Source: Paraliobacillus zengyii (GTDB lineage: Bacteria; Bacillota; Bacilli; Bacillales; Amphibacillaceae). From it: DNA of 64,000 nt. The stretch spans positions 331,501 through 395,500 of the forward strand of contig NZ_CP029797.1 in the NCBI RefSeq assembly GCF_003268595.1, read 5' to 3'. This document shows, piece after piece, positions 24,323 through 30,305 of this stretch. Each line of letters starts with the position of its first letter. The stretch's first letter is position 1. The notes beneath the pieces are model-generated. The model ran no database searches and was not told where the DNA came from. It worked only from the letters and a program-made list of their open reading frames with translations. Made by a program: the position numbers and the translations under genes.

Positions 24323-26578
24323 ATGAAAATAGCAGAAGAAGTTACACAAAGAAACCCTTGGGATGGCTTCCATGATGGAAGATGGCAAAAAGAAATTGAC
24401 GTCCGTGATTTTATTTTAAAGAACTTTACCTTATATGAAGGAAATGAAGAATTTCTAGAAAGCGCAACTGAAGCAACGAAAGCTTTATGGGATCGTGTAA
24501 TGGATTTAACAAAACAGGAACGAGAAAATGGTGGTGTTTTAGACCTTGATACAAAAATTGTTTCTACAATTACATCACATGGACCTGGATATTTAAATAA
24601 AGATAGTGAAAAAGTGGTTGGTGTGCAAACAGATGAGCCTTTTAAACGTTCATTACAACCAAATGGTGGTATTCGTATGGCGGTAGCCGCAGCAGAATCT
24701 TATGGATTTAAGATTGATGAAGAAGTAGTGAAGACATTTTCCGAACATCGCAAAACACACAATCAAGGTGTTTTTGATGCATATACACCAGAAATAATGA
24801 CTGCACGTAAGGCTGGTATTGTAACTGGATTACCAGATGCGTACGGTCGAGGTCGTATAATCGGTGATTACCGACGTGTTTCTCTTTATGGTGTAGACCA
24901 CTTGGTTGCTGAAAAGAAAAAAGAGTTAGCTTTAATAGGTAACGGCACCATGATAGAAGATATTATTCGTGATCGCGAAGAGACAACAGAACAGATTCGT
25001 GCACTTCAAGAACTGAAACAATTGGGTGCTACGTATGGCTTTGATATTTCAAAACCAGCGAAAACTGCTCAAGAAGCTTTCCAATGGTTGTACTTTGGTT
25101 ATTTAGCGGCGATTAAAGAGCAAAATGGTGCAGCAATGAGTCTAGGGCGCGTATCTACTTTCTTAGATATTTATATTGAAAGAGATATTGAAAATGGTTT
25201 GTTGACGGAAGAACAAGCTCAAGAGCTTGTTGATCACTTTGTTATGAAATTGCGTCTTGTTAAATTTGCAAGAACTCCTGAATACAATGAATTATTTAGT
25301 GGTGATCCAACTTGGGTAACAGAATCACTAGCTGGTATGGCACAAGATGGAAGGCCGTTGGTTACGAAGAGCTCCTATCGTTTCTTGCACACTTTAGATA
25401 ATTTAGGTCCTGCCCCTGAACCAAACTTAACAGTACTATGGTCAGTGAAATTGCCTGAAAACTATAAAAAGTATTGTGCAAGTATGTCTATTAAATCAAG
25501 TTCTATTCAATATGAAAATGATGATTTGATGCGTGATATTTATGGTGATGACTATGGTATTGCTTGTTGTGTATCTGCGATGCGTATTGGTAAGCAAATG
25601 CAATTTTTTGGGGCACGTGCTAACTTAGCAAAAGCTTTACTATATTCTATTAATGGCGGTATGGATGAGAAGCTTAAAATTCAAGTAGCTCCTAACTATG
25701 CACCGATTACTTCTGAGTATTTAGATTATGATGAAGTGATGAAAAAATATGATACCATGTTAGATTGGTTATCTGGTATGTATGTAAATGCATTAAATAT
25801 CATTCACTATATGCACGATAAATACAGCTATGAAAGAATAGAAATGGCGTTACATGATCGAGAAGTACTACGTACAATGGCTTGTGGAATTGCAGGATTA
25901 TCTGTTGTTGCTGACTCGCTTAGTGCCATTAAATATGCAAAAGTAAGAACAATTCGTGATGAAGATGGTTTAGTAGTAGATTATGAAACAGAAGGTGATT
26001 TTCCTAAATACGGTAATAATGATGACCGTGTTGATGATATTGCTGCTGATTTAGTTAAAATGTTTATGAACAAAATTAAGAAACACCAAACGTATCGAAA
26101 TTCCGTGCACACACAATCAATTTTAACAATTACTTCAAACGTTGTGTATGGTAAGAAAACTGGGAATACACCGGATGGACGAAAAGCTGGTGAACCATTT
26201 GCGCCAGGTGCAAATCCATTACACGGTCGTGATCAAAATGGCGCTTTAGCATCATTAAGTTCAGTCGCTAAAATGCCATATGAGTATTCCTTAGATGGCA
26301 TTTCTAATACTTTCTCTATAGTACCTAAGGCATTAGGTAAAAATGAAGAAGCTAGAAAGGCTAATTTAGCGGGAATGCTTGATGGATATGTAACGAAGAA
26401 AGGTCATCACTTAAATGTAAACGTGTTTGATCGCGAGACACTTTTAGATGCAATGGATCGTCCAGAAGAATACCCGCAATTAACAATTCGTGTATCTGGT
26501 TATGCAGTAAACTTTATTAAATTAACGAGAGAACAACAAATAGATGTGATAAACCGTACGTTCCATGATGGAATGTAA
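24323..26578 (+). CDS. pflB: Formate C-acetyltransferase (pyruvate formate-lyase)
   Basis: The 751-residue glycyl-radical enzyme has the active-site cysteine pair Cys415-Cys416 (IACCVSAM) and the radical glycine Gly726 in the C-terminal RVSGYAV motif. It cleaves pyruvate with CoA to acetyl-CoA and formate under anaerobic conditions. The length is typical of the family. It starts at ATG 24323 behind AAGGAGG, downstream of an FNR-type promoter. The activating enzyme gene follows 74 bp later. Acetyl-CoA made here can feed AdhE. Confidence 0.97.
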
Positions 26579-26652
26579 TAAGTAAATAAGTGGTTATGGA
26601 GGGGTAAAGATGAGCCCCTCTTGTTCTAAATAAGGCAAGGAGGGCGAACAAC

Positions 26653-27393
26653 ATGAAAGGTCGAATACATTCTATAGAAACAATGGGAACAGTAGATGGT
26701 CCTGGCTTACGTTATGTTATTTTCACGCAGGGGTGCTTATTACGTTGTAAATTTTGTCATAACCCTGATACGTGGAAAATGGGTCAAGGAAAGGAAATGA
26801 CAGTTGCAGAAATGGTTAAAGATATCAAAGACTATCTTCCCTTCTTCCAATCCACTAATGGTGGTGTAACTGTAAGTGGTGGGGAGCCGTTGCTACAACT
26901 TGAATTCTTAATAGAATTATTCACAGAACTAAAAAAAATGGGAGTTCATACAACCATTGACAGTTCAGCTGGATGTTTTAGTCGCTCTCCACGCTTTATG
27001 AAAAACTTAGATAAACTGTTAGAAGTTACGGATTTAGTATTACTAGATTTGAAACATATCGATCCAATTGAACATAAGGAACTGACTGGTATGTCTAATG
27101 AACATATTATCGATATGGCTAGATATTTGGATGAAAGAAATATCCCAATATGGGTGCGTCATGTACTTGTTCCTGGTATTAGTGATAAAGATGAGTATTT
27201 ACAACAGCTTTCAGATTTTATTGCTACATTAAGGAATGTAGAACAAATTGATGTCTTACCTTATCATAAATTGGGTGTTTACAAGTGGGAGACTTTAGGT
27301 ATTAAATATCCGCTTGAGGGAGTAGAGCCTCCAACAGAAGATCGTGTAAAGAATGCAGAAGATATTTTAAATAGAGTGAAAGTCTTATCATAA
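26653..27393 (+). CDS. pflA: Pyruvate formate-lyase-activating enzyme (radical SAM)
   Basis: The 246-residue protein has the radical-SAM cluster motif CLLRCKFC (CX3CX2C) at residues 29-36 and the glycine-rich VSGGEPLLQ. It uses S-adenosylmethionine and a 4Fe-4S cluster to place the glycyl radical on Gly726 of PflB. It starts behind AAGGAGGG and forms an operon with pflB, closed by a hairpin terminator. Confidence 0.96.
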   Translation: MKGRIHSIETMGTVDGPGLRYVIFTQGCLLRCKFCHNPDTWKMGQGKEMTVAEMVKDIKDYLPFFQSTNGGVTVSGGEPLLQLEFLIELFTELKKMGVHTTIDSSAGCFSRSPRFMKNLDKLLEVTDLVLLDLKHIDPIEHKELTGMSNEHIIDMARYLDERNIPIWVRHVLVPGISDKDEYLQQLSDFIATLRNVEQIDVLPYHKLGVYKWETLGIKYPLEGVEPPTEDRVKNAEDILNRVKVLS

Positions 27394-27615: not shown

Positions 27616-27636
27616 AATGATCATTTGAATGATCAA
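27616..27636. promoter_or_regulatory. Palindromic candidate operator upstream of ohr
   Basis: TGATCATT-TG-AATGATCA (27618-27635) is a perfect palindrome; it also contains the direct repeat GAATGATCA. It lies 26 bp before the ohr start codon and would overlap the promoter or transcript start. It is not the sequence I know for the B. subtilis OhrR operator, and no regulator gene is adjacent. Confidence 0.45.
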
Positions 27637-27661
27637 ATTAATAGAAGGAGTGTTTCAGATC

Positions 27662-28075
27662 ATGAGTATTAAATTTACTGCACATGCAACAGCTAAAGGC
27701 GGACGCGAAGGACATGTTAAGTCAGATGACGGTTTAATTGACTTAAACTTAGTTCAACCTGGTTCAAATGCTGGAAAAGGCTCTAATCCAGAACAGTTAT
27801 TTGCAGCTGGTTATGCGGCTTGTTATGATGGAGCGCTTAATCACATGGCTAGAGAAGCAAAAAAAGAAATTGATTCTACTATCACTGCAGATGTTAGTTT
27901 GATGGATGATGAAGAAGATGGTGGATTTCAAATTGGTGTAACCTTAAATGTCGAGATAAAAGGTGTTAACCAAGAAGAAGCAGAAGACTTAGCTAAAAAA
28001 GCACACGGTTTTTGCCCTTATTCTAAAGCAACCCGTGGTAATATTAATGTAGAAGTAAAAGCAAAAGCAATATAA
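27662..28075 (+). CDS. ohr: Organic hydroperoxide resistance protein (Ohr)
   Basis: The start taken is ATG 27662 behind AGAAGGAG; a longer in-frame reading from 27629 would overlap the palindromic operator. The 137-residue product has the two Ohr cysteine motifs, YAACYDGA and HGFCPYSKATRGN, which hold the reactive cysteine and its resolving partner. Ohr reduces organic and fatty-acid hydroperoxides with lipoyl-dependent thiol reduction. It is a single-gene unit between two terminators. Confidence 0.92.
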   Translation: MSIKFTAHATAKGGREGHVKSDDGLIDLNLVQPGSNAGKGSNPEQLFAAGYAACYDGALNHMAREAKKEIDSTITADVSLMDDEEDGGFQIGVTLNVEIKGVNQEEAEDLAKKAHGFCPYSKATRGNINVEVKAKAI

Positions 28076-28081
28076 GTAGAT

Positions 28082-28120
28082 AAAAGAAGGTATCCTTGAG
28101 AGAAAAGGATACCTTCTTTT
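28082..28120. terminator. Bidirectional terminator between ohr and yidC2
   Basis: AAAAGAAGGTATCCTT (28082-28097) pairs perfectly with AAGGATACCTTCTTTT (28105-28120). The A and T runs on the two sides make it active for both convergent units. Confidence 0.85.
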
Positions 28121-28126
28121 TAGTTT

Positions 28127-28939
28127 TTAGCGACTGTGGAGGGGGGTTGCTACTTTTGGTTGATAAAGTTTTTTAGATAATAATTGTTGTACAATTAAAA
28201 ATGTTCCCCCGACTGTCCAGTATAGTGGAAGTGCAGCTGGTGCGTTAAACGAAACAAAACCAATCATTAGCGGGGATAGGATCCCCATGAATGCCATTTG
28301 TTTCTTTTGTTTCGGTTCAATCCCAATTTGAGTTACTCTAAATTGAATGAAGTAAATAGCAGCTGCAACAAAAGTCATTACTAGATCAGATTGCCCCAAG
28401 TTGAACCAAAGGAAAGAATGGCTAGCAATTTCTGGTGTTGATCGAATCGCATAGTAAAAGCCAATCAGAATAGGGAATTGAATAATCATTGGTAAACAAC
28501 CAATAGATGCAATCGGATTAAAATTGTGTTTCTTATATAGTTCCATCGTTTCTTGTTGCATTATTTTTTGAGAAGCACTATCTTTCTTGTTTTTATAAGA
28601 AGCTTGTAATGCCTCTAATTCAGGCTTCATACTAGCCATTTTGTCACGCATCTGAAAACCATTTTTCGATTGTTTTAACATAAGTGGCATTAAAATTAAG
28701 CGTATTGTCAATGTCACTAAAACGATCGAAAGACCGTAGTTTCCGTCAAAGAATGTTGCTACACCTTTAATGATAATAGAAAAGGTGTTAACAAAGTATT
28801 TATCAAAAAAACCTGCTGTGTCAGGATCAACAGCTTCACCAGTGGCTGCGGATTGGCAACCAGATAATATAAAGAGTAATACGATTAAACTAACAAAGCG
28901 ATATTTCTTAAAGAATGTGAACACAGATTGCTTAGACAT
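28127..28939 (-). CDS. yidC2: YidC/Oxa1-family membrane protein insertase, YidC2 (YqjG) type
   Basis: The 270-residue protein is a lipoprotein-type YidC with lipobox LSGC (Cys28). About five membrane segments follow. The conserved arginine of the hydrophilic groove lies in VTLTIRLILMPLM, and the C1 region has the charged helices MRDKMASMKPELEALQASYKNKK. It inserts proteins into the membrane alone or with SecYEG. It starts at ATG 28939 behind GAGGAGG (28946-28952). That ribosome-binding site can pair with an upstream CCTCCTC inside the preceding MifM-like gene, so expression is probably controlled by nascent-chain arrest, as for B. subtilis yidC2. This is why I call it YidC2 rather than SpoIIIJ. 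Confidence 0.93.
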   Translation of the reverse strand: MSKQSVFTFFKKYRFVSLIVLLFILSGCQSAATGEAVDPDTAGFFDKYFVNTFSIIIKGVATFFDGNYGLSIVLVTLTIRLILMPLMLKQSKNGFQMRDKMASMKPELEALQASYKNKKDSASQKIMQQETMELYKKHNFNPIASIGCLPMIIQFPILIGFYYAIRSTPEIASHSFLWFNLGQSDLVMTFVAAAIYFIQFRVTQIGIEPKQKKQMAFMGILSPLMIGFVSFNAPAALPLYWTVGGTFLIVQQLLSKKLYQPKVATPLHSR

Positions 28940-29268
28940 GATTTTCCTCCTCGTAATAGTAAAAATAAATCATTAGTTGAGGAGGTGTGATTGTCTTCAT
29001 CATCATCAGGAGCATCTTTGCGTTTCATCTTTTTAGTAATCCAATTGTGAATAGCTCGTATTTGGCTTAAAAGATGAAACAACTCTCGTAAATCTAAGTA
29101 TGATATTCGTTGGTGTTGACTCATAAAACCGTTTTGCTTTGTTAAATGATAGTTTGCAACATAAACCATACCGTAAGAGCAAAGTATCGTCATATATAAG
29201 GTAAGATACAAATACATTGGGTGGATATCATTGTTTAGTTGACTAATAATATCTAAGACCATCTGCAT
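28885..29268 (-). CDS. mifM: MifM-like membrane-anchored regulatory arrest peptide upstream of yidC2
   Basis: The 127-codon frame starts at ATG 29268 behind a near-perfect GAAAGGAGGTGA. Residues 18-40 form one membrane segment (PMYLYLTLYMTILCSYGMVYVA). Residues 71-93 read RAIHN followed by WITKKMKRKDAPDDDEDN, closely resembling the MifM arrest region as I recall it (R-I-x-x-W-I, basic stretch, Pro, acidic run). In B. subtilis, MifM stalls its own ribosome unless the insertase pulls on it, and the stall opens a hairpin that hides the yidC2 ribosome-binding site. Here the CCTCCTC strand falls in codons 95-97, just after the acidic run, where a stalled ribosome would melt it. Unlike MifM (95 residues), the frame continues 54 bp into yidC2 in another frame. 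Confidence 0.8.
   Translation of the reverse strand: MQMVLDIISQLNNDIHPMYLYLTLYMTILCSYGMVYVANYHLTKQNGFMSQHQRISYLDLRELFHLLSQIRAIHNWITKKMKRKDAPDDDEDNHTSSTNDLFLLLRGGKSCLSNLCSHSLRNIALLV
28946..28985 (-). promoter_or_regulatory. RNA hairpin sequestering the yidC2 ribosome-binding site
   Basis: On the minus strand CCTCCTC (28985-28979) is perfectly complementary to GAGGAGG (28952-28946), the yidC2 Shine-Dalgarno sequence, with a 26-nt A/T-rich loop. The 5' strand lies inside the MifM-like gene a few codons after its acidic arrest region. The arrangement equals the MifM-yidC2 translational switch. Confidence 0.8.
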
Positions 29269-29369
29269 TCACCTCCTTTCATTACCTTCTGTTTTTTCTT
29301 CTTTTCTATCATGATACAATACGTATATAAAGTCAAAGGAAGTTTTAGTAACAAATGCTATAACTATTG

Positions 29370-29417
29370 AAACCTGGCTACTAGTCGAGACGTAATATAT
29401 AAATAGTATGCAGGTTT
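29370..29417 (+). other. Long imperfect hairpin in the proC leader region
   Basis: AAACCTG (29370-29376) pairs with CAGGTTT (29411-29417), and TACTA (29379-29383) with TAGTA (29404-29408), leaving a 20-nt loop. It lies 94 bp upstream of proC and after the divergent mifM start. It could be a leader structure or a terminator-like element; it fits no riboswitch I know. Confidence 0.35.
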
Positions 29418-29510
29418 ATTTTGTATTATATCATTGGGATAAGAATCATTAGAAAGCTAATTAGAATGACGTGTTTAAAAAGTATGTAAGAATGAAAGGA
29501 TGAAAAGTAA

Positions 29511-30305
29511 ATGACTACACATATAAGAAAGGTATTATTTATAGGGGCTGGAAGAATGGCTCAAGCAATTATTGCAGGTTTAAGCAAAACGGAAATGACA
29601 ATTGTGGCAAGCAACAACGGAGATGTAAAACGCTTAGAGGAAGTAGAAAATAAGTATGGTGTAAGCACAACAGACAGTTGGAAAGAAGAAGTCGATGGTG
29701 CTGATATAATTGTCTTGGCGATGCCACCTGAGGCGCATGAATCTGTTCTAAAAGAAGTAGCCTTGTTTGTTGATAATCAATTTATTGTAACATTAGCTGC
29801 TGGAATCGATCCGACCTATTTAGAAAAGAATTTACCAGCAGAAACACCAACAGCTTGGATGATGCCAAATCCAGCTGCTTCATTAGGCAAATCAGTTACG
29901 CTTTATGCGCTAGGTCAATATGCTGATGAACAGCATCAAATAATGTTGGAAGAATTATTGGAGAGCATTGGTTCATCAGAAAAGGTGACAGAAGAGCAAG
30001 TACATGCATTGACACCGATTACGGGAAGTGGTTCAGCATTTGTTTATCGAATGGCTGAGTCGCTCATTCAGTCAGCTTTGAAAACTGGGGTGACGGCAGA
30101 TCAAGCAAAAAAATTAGTTGCAGATATGATTCATGGTGCAGCAGCTATGTTACAAACAGGAGAAGATACGGAGCGACTGCTGGATCAAATTGCAAGTCCG
30201 GGAGGGGTAACAGCAGCAGGTCTCGAAGTAATGGATGAAAGGGAATTTGATCAGATGATGAAAGATGTTATAACAGCGTGCCATAAGCGTGCAAAAAATA
30301 TATAA
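29511..30305 (+). CDS. proC: Pyrroline-5-carboxylate reductase
   Basis: The 264-residue protein has the N-terminal Rossmann motif FIGAGRMAQAII and the C-terminal P5C reductase signature TPITGSGSAFVYRMAESLI followed by IASPGGVTAAGLEVMDE. It reduces 1-pyrroline-5-carboxylate to proline with NAD(P)H, the last step of proline synthesis; proline is also a compatible solute in halotolerant Bacillaceae. It starts behind GAAAGGATG and forms a single-gene unit ending in a bidirectional terminator. Confidence 0.93.
   Translation: MTTHIRKVLFIGAGRMAQAIIAGLSKTEMTIVASNNGDVKRLEEVENKYGVSTTDSWKEEVDGADIIVLAMPPEAHESVLKEVALFVDNQFIVTLAAGIDPTYLEKNLPAETPTAWMMPNPAASLGKSVTLYALGQYADEQHQIMLEELLESIGSSEKVTEEQVHALTPITGSGSAFVYRMAESLIQSALKTGVTADQAKKLVADMIHGAAAMLQTGEDTERLLDQIASPGGVTAAGLEVMDEREFDQMMKDVITACHKRAKNI

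Follow-up and report, generated by a model that had tools for sequence, protein, structure and literature searches.

MifM is a standard example of a force-sensing arrest peptide, and the yidC2 locus of Paraliobacillus zengyii raises the question why a leader frame of this kind should run on into the gene in front of which it stands, and why its own start should be complementary to codons of that gene. The locus lies in a 64,000-nucleotide (nt) stretch of contig NZ_CP029797.1 (positions 331,501 to 395,500), which we call the window and whose numbering is used throughout; unless stated otherwise, all features lie on the minus strand. An earlier, sequence-only reading had proposed a MifM-like leader controlling yidC2 at this place, but both the overlap with yidC2 and the complementarity of the mifM start to yidC2 codons escaped it. 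According to our analysis, the frame is very probably a MifM-type leader of yidC2, and we regard it as close to certain that the long-range RNA duplex between the two gene starts is under selection. The best explanation of the locus, which we consider probable, is an insertase monitor of the MifM type with two RNA gates.

The leader frame runs into yidC2

The full open reading frame (ORF) at 28885-29268 comprises, as first described, 127 codons counted from the first in-frame ATG, and it follows a very strong Shine-Dalgarno (SD) sequence, AAGGAGGTGA, at 29269-29278. Most relatives carry GAATACAGATG before the mifM start, where the window has GAATGCAGATG; this adds an upstream ATG, so that codon 3 (29260-29262), the second ATG in frame, is the conserved start, and the leader gene proper has 125 codons (28888-29262, stop codon 28885-28887). 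The upstream ATG looks like a one-base accident. The following gene (28127-28939) encodes a 270-amino-acid protein of the 60KD_IMP family and is the second yidC, since another YidC gene is found at G000 C1:3726643-3727356 of the same genome. The frame had been placed directly upstream of yidC; it indeed adjoins yidC2, but it also overlaps the gene by 55 nt.

A mifM profile matched 99 of 159 genomes of the family, 104 of 397 genomes sampled from the order and 23 of 398 sampled from the class, 13 of these 23 being already in the family and order sets. The comparison covers 167 loci, 99 of the family and 68 others; 30 of the 105 match rows of the order sample, with E above ~2e-6, were left out, and one locus (L030) entered via yidC2. 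The downstream ORF is YidC-like in 166 of the 167, the exception being a locus (L188) for which the wrong ORF was picked.

The stop positions of the leader frame form two groups. In 49 short loci the frame ends before or at the yidC2 start (-32 to -2, plus one at +7 and one at -130, the latter being L188 with its wrong downstream ORF), and in 118 extended loci, defined by a stop at +20 or beyond relative to the yidC2 start, it ends inside yidC2 (+26 to +175, with 104 of the 118 within +40 to +70). The window, with its stop at +55, lacks the early stop of the B. subtilis type. Within the family, 97 of 99 loci stop inside yidC2 and two at -25, and the frame crosses the yidC2 SD, the start codon and the first ~18 codons. 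Outside this family, the order has extended loci in nine further families, and in seven of them they show the pairing described below. That MifM of this lineage lacks the early stop and is read through into yidC2 appears to be a new finding. Relative to yidC2, the reading phase of MifM is close to fixed, being +1 in 108 of 112 paired extended loci (phases in 46 short loci: 22, 13 and 11); phase 2 contains a stop between -45 and the end of the pairing arm in 78 of the 112, and the MifM stop codon begins 3' of the arm end in 111 of them. The near-fixed phase, the stops in phase 2 and the stop past the arm together indicate that the frame of MifM matters. Two extended frames (L025, L199) lack the long-range pairing and apparently represent separate losses of the stop.

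Complementarity between the mifM start and yidC2 codons

The left arm of the duplex, AAAGGAGGTGAATGCAGATGGT (29258-29279), consists of the mifM SD, the spacer and the start codon; the right arm, GCAATCTGTGTTCACATTCTTT (28910-28931), lies within yidC2 codons 3-10 and is referred to as the anti-RBS (RBS, ribosome-binding site). Of the 22 positions, 20 are paired in the window, by 16 Watson-Crick and four GU pairs, and two are GA mismatches; the arms are about 340 nt apart, and the duplex has a predicted energy of -22.4 kcal/mol (p 0.0004 against 20,000 shuffles). In a uniform rescan of all 167 loci, 114 of 118 extended loci reached a pairing score of at least 24 versus 1 of 49 short loci; this cut-off was chosen after a first look at the pairing, and about 1% of draws with shuffled arms also attain it. 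When one automatically picked start was used for each of 163 of the 167 loci, the counts were 112 of 117 extended and 0 of 46 short loci, the automatic start being wrong for L021 and L194. The helix of the paired loci has a median length of 19 positions (range 10-29, mismatches included), and their mifM SD has at least eight matching bases in 103 of 112 cases, compared with 8 of 46 short loci.

On the yidC2 side, the block TCTGTATTCAC is conserved at positions that are silent for YidC2. Valine in the right arm is encoded by GTA in 75 of 78 cases versus 145 of 495 in the following part of yidC2, and phenylalanine by TTC in 83 of 85 versus 214 of 698. This silent codon choice is likely fixed because the block is complementary to the mifM SD, spacer and start. 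Variation within the block falls on MifM third positions, and the YidC2 third positions are nearly fixed.

The sets used for codons, covariation and folding hold 106 of the 118 extended loci; the 12 loci dropped for want of an anchor include four unpaired ones, and pairing percentages in these sets are therefore not estimates of prevalence. Watson-Crick pairs occupy 1438 of 1908 cells, compared with 1304.7 (standard deviation 9.4, maximum 1337) in 2000 permutations of the partners, and GU pairs occupy 195 cells compared with 232.6 under permutation. At pair 7, the 106 loci show C-G in 81, T-A in 11 and A-T in nine cases, so the arms vary in step. On a tree of YidC2 fragments, pairs 0-10 underwent 18 same-branch changes, where 1.3 would be expected, and 15 of these were compensatory; shifting the register from -3 to +3 gave compensatory counts of 0, 0, 0, (15), 1, 0 and 0. 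In one group of loci, YidC2 reads GLLT in place of SVFT, the MifM tail reads AYS in place of LYS, and the mifM spacer has become GTGAGTAA, with the pairing kept. As this group keeps the duplex, it seems to be the RNA that is conserved, and neither of the two peptides.

In 13 named Bacilli records a yidC2-type gene was matched, and overlap and pairing are present in every one of the 12 scored (over 26 positions in Oceanobacillus chungangensis), at least several of them being genomes already counted above; the remaining record, Evansella clarkii, carries GGAGGTGAATACAGATG and ATCTGTATTCACTTTC. Outside the order, the arms of three loci (L235, L236, L240) look complementary with other letters, for example GTGAATCCCTTG with CAAGGGGTTCAC (null not computed), which hints at an old lock. 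A check over a wider search area, comprising ten loci of the class scan and one control, gave scores that are leads only, as no null was computed for them: L230 25.0, L235 26.5, L236 33.0, L237 27.0, L238 20.0, L240 28.5 and L242 22, with 31.0 for the control L121; for L243, L244 and L245, yidC2 was not located in this class-level check. A target in trans within the spoIIIJ mRNA (L079) was also considered and set aside: its best score, 28.0 with no null computed, lies well inside the coding part, past the start.

Relationship to MifM and the presumed arrest region

A profile built from 37 relatives and searched against the whole PDB returned B. subtilis MifM (3j9w_AZ) as the best of three sequences, with an E value of 0.017 that is modest when taken alone; the alignment spans residues 4-93 with two single-residue gaps. 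Homology, position in front of yidC2, the spacing between membrane segment and arrest region, the arrest pattern and an SD-sequestering hairpin together bear out the earlier idea of a MifM-type monitor of yidC2. Moreover, no genome was found in which yidC2 is kept and the frame lost: among the window's genome and 36 relatives of the same genus or family, a yidC2-type gene (E < 1e-70) is present in 20, and every one of them has the frame. In G001, the one other member of the genus searched, there is a single YidC match and no mifM match, and yidC2 and its leader thus seem to be gained or lost together.

The critical residues of MifM, according to the accessible text of two studies, are R69, I70, W73, I74, M80, N81 and the acidic DEED at 86-89 (PMC6037786, PMC4423224). 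The window's presumed arrest region (28993-29043) extends from W76 to D92 in the numbering of the 127-codon frame. The W-I pair (W76-I77), the proline (P87) and the acidic run (D88-D92) pointed out by the sequence-only reading are all there, but the stretch it quoted corresponds to residues 76-93 and not to 71-93. In a gap-free alignment of AIHNWITKKMKRKDAPDDDED (window) with RITTWIRKVFRMNSPVNDEED (MifM), 7 of 21 residues are identical, and the profile alignment introduces a one-residue gap after W-I, which brings R83 onto R79 and P87 onto P83. Both alignments keep I70, W73, I74 and the acidic run, which reads DDED in the gap-free and DEDN in the profile version. R69 is replaced by alanine, with an arginine one residue upstream. 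Since B. subtilis D89 aligns with D92 (gap-free) or N93 (profile), the first stall would be expected at codon 92 or 93. In the extended loci, W-[ILFVM] is present in 111 of 118, although the filter itself demands the tryptophan; among these 111, the spacing after W places R at +7 in 99, P at +11 in 81, D at +13 in 105 and D or E at +16 in 95. To judge from the sequences, this W/R/P/D spacing is a lineage-specific form of the arrest pattern.

An N-terminal membrane segment of the MifM type (N-out/C-in) may be present. There is one hydrophobic segment, at residues 18-36 of the 125-residue protein (29155-29211, defined by Kyte-Doolittle hydropathy only), and its mean of 1.49 stays below the usual cut-off of 1.6, which 100 of 163 loci reach. 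In the same numbering, D4 and D12 precede the segment, K42 and R52 follow it, and the acidic run (D86-D90) lies within residues 70-100, where the homologue survey in PMC10987492, so far as its text is accessible, expects acidic residues. The ends of the hydrophobic segment and of the acidic run are a median of 55 residues apart over 163 loci, next to a median of 54 given for MifM in that text. The organism's uL22 reads RPRAMGRA, with a methionine at the place of B. subtilis M90 as positioned by the surrounding residues; M90 is described as favouring stalling on MifM in the part of PMC4423224 consulted. By analogy with MifM, we infer that the window frame would stall the ribosome and that YidC-dependent insertion would relieve the stall.

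Two points speak against this assignment. The B. subtilis pair M80-N81 is absent in either possible alignment, being replaced by R-K (gap-free) or K-D (profile), which agrees with the diverged arrest residues that had been predicted, and neither Pfam nor NCBIfam gave a significant match for the window frame. Together with a single-sequence PDB search from which MifM was not recovered, the empty family searches would suit a frame that is untranslated or unrelated to MifM. We find this barely credible, as 167 loci have such a frame with its SD and an arrest-like region, 166 of them before a YidC-like ORF, and the profile does match MifM.

A predicted local hairpin closes the yidC2 Shine-Dalgarno sequence

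The sequence CCTCCTC (28979-28985) forms the 5' arm, and the yidC2 SD GAGGAGG (28946-28952) the 3' arm, of a predicted sequestering hairpin (-17.2 kcal/mol, z -2.7, 3 of 200 shuffles as good). A hairpin score of at least 15 is reached by 117 of the 118 extended loci and by 46 of the 49 short ones, and in the fold model of the window the yidC2 SD has an unpaired probability of 0.006. The 5' arm occupies the positions 10-16 nt past the first base of codon D92; judging from these positions, a ribosome with D92 in its P (peptidyl) site would reach into it. The arrangement matches the published MifM mechanism.

Fold models of the leader RNA

The folded leader sequences start 40 bases ahead of the SD core, and some of this stretch is possibly untranscribed. 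Without constraints, at least six of ten core pairs of the long-range duplex form in 95 of 106 RNAs, and the ten core pairs of the window have a mean probability of 0.997. The mifM RBS is more open in truncated nascent RNA than in the full RNA (median unpaired 0.37 vs 0.18, with 40 of the 106 loci sampled). When the mifM body is covered, additional covering of the anti-RBS makes the mifM start more open by a median of 0.21, with a gain in 35 of 40 loci. The yidC2 AUG responds to covering of the right arm as well: in the window its openness increases from 0.08 to 0.75, and the median of 25 loci goes from 0.47 to 0.75.

Two gates and the alternatives

In the mechanism that we propose, the first gate would work as in MifM: the nascent chain would stall its ribosome near codon 92 unless YidC-dependent insertion pulls the chain free, and the stalled ribosome would cover the hairpin arm at 28979-28985 and thereby free the yidC2 SD. 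At the second gate, yidC2 codons 3-10 would pair with the SD, the spacer and the start codon of mifM. Once the mRNA is complete and free of ribosomes, both starts would be shut, so that an idle messenger would be silent for both genes. On nascent mRNA, the mifM start would be transcribed first and the first ribosomes could load. A MifM ribosome that has passed the arrest site would then read on through the extended tail, the yidC2 start and the anti-RBS, melting the duplex, and a stalled MifM ribosome would let yidC2 ribosomes cross the overlap and melt it likewise. Synthesis of the sensor would thus be licensed by ongoing ribosome traffic over the overlap. That the duplex is a lock on mifM initiation which ribosomes clear has, in our view, about an even chance, and both the sequestration in vivo and the licensing by traffic are what we infer. 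Slightly less assured is the wider idea that the N-terminal signature of YidC2 (SVFTFFKKY and variants) is no protein motif but a translated anti-RBS, and that the MifM frame was lengthened so that each insertion event reopens the start of the sensor, which would make the second gate an old one and the sensing self-renewing.

Several observations weigh against this proposal. Four extended loci (L025, L191, L199, L217) are unpaired. Conversely, L194 (G382) pairs despite an early stop at -16 and L237 (G691) despite one at -27 (score 27, null not computed); these two are possibly recent losses of the overlap or a variant of the lock. On the YidC2-fragment tree, which carries no support values, the distinction between extended and short loci takes five changes, and the association of overlap and pairing hence reflects few evolutionary events and not 167. 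Single-side changes at pairs 0-10 keep a standard pair in 28 cases and do not in 34, and 47 single-side changes away from Watson-Crick pairing led to 19 GU, seven AC and 21 other mismatches. In a masked model of the arrested ribosome, the yidC2 SD is unpaired at just 0.20, both in the window and in the median of 25 loci. The weakest point, as far as the fold models go, is the opening of the mifM start. Five of the 40 sampled loci show no gain in openness, and the window is one of them: with the body covered in both cases, covering the anti-RBS brings no rise in the predicted openness of its mifM start (0.184 to 0.176), and with the body free the mifM SD alone goes from 0.117 to 0.173.

One alternative keeps real weight, although we consider it unlikely: an ordinary MifM leader whose duplex mainly restrains initiation at yidC2, with the mifM RBS as a mere partner strand. 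The duplex begins at +8 of yidC2, inside the 30S footprint, and in the fold models the yidC2 AUG opens more than the mifM SD once the right arm is covered. If so, initiation at mifM would be the precondition for yidC2 expression. Against it stand the local hairpin, by which the yidC2 SD is closed anyway (0.006 unpaired in the window), the position of the left arm, whose centre falls on the SD and start of mifM, and the unusually strong mifM SD of paired loci, as would suit a start that competes with a lock. Rather improbable, to our mind, is a role of the duplex in stability or processing, for instance as a site for a double-strand-specific RNase that removes untranslated mRNA; the helix lengths of 10-29 positions (median 19) would suit such an element, but the window helix carries two mismatches.

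Two further alternatives appear equally far-fetched. If the complementarity were an inverted repeat at the DNA level, with two operator sites co-evolving with one regulator, both arms would change together between lineages, as they do. Yet one arm coincides exactly with the SD and start of mifM, the other falls within codons, and single-side changes prefer GU over AC (19 vs 7, besides the 21 other mismatches). In addition, the yidC2 copy of a 19-nt stretch of the right arm is the sole exact one in the genome, with five places at up to three mismatches compared with one for the reversed control. In the other alternative, selection acts on the peptide of the extended MifM tail with its LYS-type motif, which might serve as a degradation signal or a second arrest signal, and the complementarity is secondary. 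We had first taken up the conserved LYS tail as a functional tail peptide and replaced this idea once the covariation with the mifM RBS was seen. The position of the block variation, at MifM third positions with YidC2 third positions nearly fixed, is in its favour, but in the GLLT/AYS group both peptides are altered, with changes in the non-coding mifM spacer preserving the duplex, and 4 of 112 paired loci keep the arm in another MifM phase.

Comparison with known systems

As to the occurrence of the leader outside the B. subtilis group, which had been put forward as new, the accessible text of PMC10987492 already reports 572 non-redundant MifM homologues from 592 Firmicutes genomes. The window frame fits their description as a uORF (upstream ORF) of yidC with an N-terminal hydrophobic segment and an acidic stretch in 70-100; an early stop ahead of yidC2 is not among the criteria used there. 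The parts of that study consulted make no mention of an overlap with yidC2 or of a long-range duplex. B. subtilis MifM (YqzJ), which precedes yidC2 (yqjG), shares with the window, in the parts of PMC6037786 and PMC4423224 consulted, the position as a uORF of yidC2, the N-terminal membrane segment (putative in the window), the arrest region with W-I and acidic residues, and the SD-sequestering hairpin downstream of the stall site. It is 95 codons long, the stall comes only a few codons ahead of the stop and the stem-loop is intergenic (PMC6037786, same limit), whereas the window MifM continues for ~35 codons past the arrest site into yidC2 and does not keep M80-N81. As for the complementarity of the mifM RBS to yidC2 codons, the comparison covers the window and its relatives. 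CliM of Clostridia, from the portion of PMC13183943 at hand, is likewise a YidC-monitoring arrest peptide with stem-loop control of yidC2, but its sequence similarity to other arrest peptides is described as undetectable, and its stem-loop lies at the cliM 3' end and the yidC2 start.

For the second gate, the closest parallels come from other fields. In the type I toxin mRNAs hok and aapA3, as far as the available text of PMC6733600 goes, the SD of the full-length mRNA is bound by an anti-SD far downstream, and the behaviour of the nascent RNA poses the same question as here. That lock guards a toxin and is relieved by 3' processing, whereas in the window the regulated gene carries the anti-SD within its own coding sequence, and the reading frame of the leader passes over it; distant pairing of the hok/aapA type is supported in the window by prediction and covariation. 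In phage MS2, passage of ribosomes over the coat gene melts the structure that hides the replicase start, so that upstream translation opens a downstream start (PMC9894550, in its accessible part); in our proposal, passage over the 5' end of the downstream gene would reopen the upstream start. A literature search on MifM, YidC2, arrest peptides and long-range SD pairing, which yielded mostly listings and left the founding 2009 paper and the supplements outside its scope, brought up no mention of the overlap or the duplex. Within these bounds, gate 2 would be a second, long-range lock on mifM initiation that we did not find in print; the complementarity behind it is conserved in many related bacteria. 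If this gate operates in cells, a large lineage regulates the very synthesis of the sensor and not only the events that follow a stall, and the key would be ribosome traffic over an overlapping gene start. The locus also carries a warning that a conserved protein N-terminus, here that of YidC2, can be the shadow of RNA pairing. It is easily testable, as one side accepts synonymous and the other non-coding changes, and natural compensatory pairs can be copied.

Other features of the locus

A candidate promoter, TTGACT-17-CATGAT (29308-29336), is weak, as seven such sites occur in the region where 6.3 are expected. A lipoprotein-like signal of yidC2 is visible on reading, with Pfam LPAM_1 below its cut-off. 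In the region 28000-29600, the four Rfam matches listed are all far below the gathering scores of their families. A terminator-like hairpin of 16 pairs (28082-28120, no strand assigned; one found vs 0.7 expected) follows 3' of yidC2 and has A/T runs on both sides, with a convergent gene at 27629-28075 beyond it. Also near the mifM locus, the genes at 24323-27393 are, by their appearance, presumably those for formate acetyltransferase and its activating enzyme.

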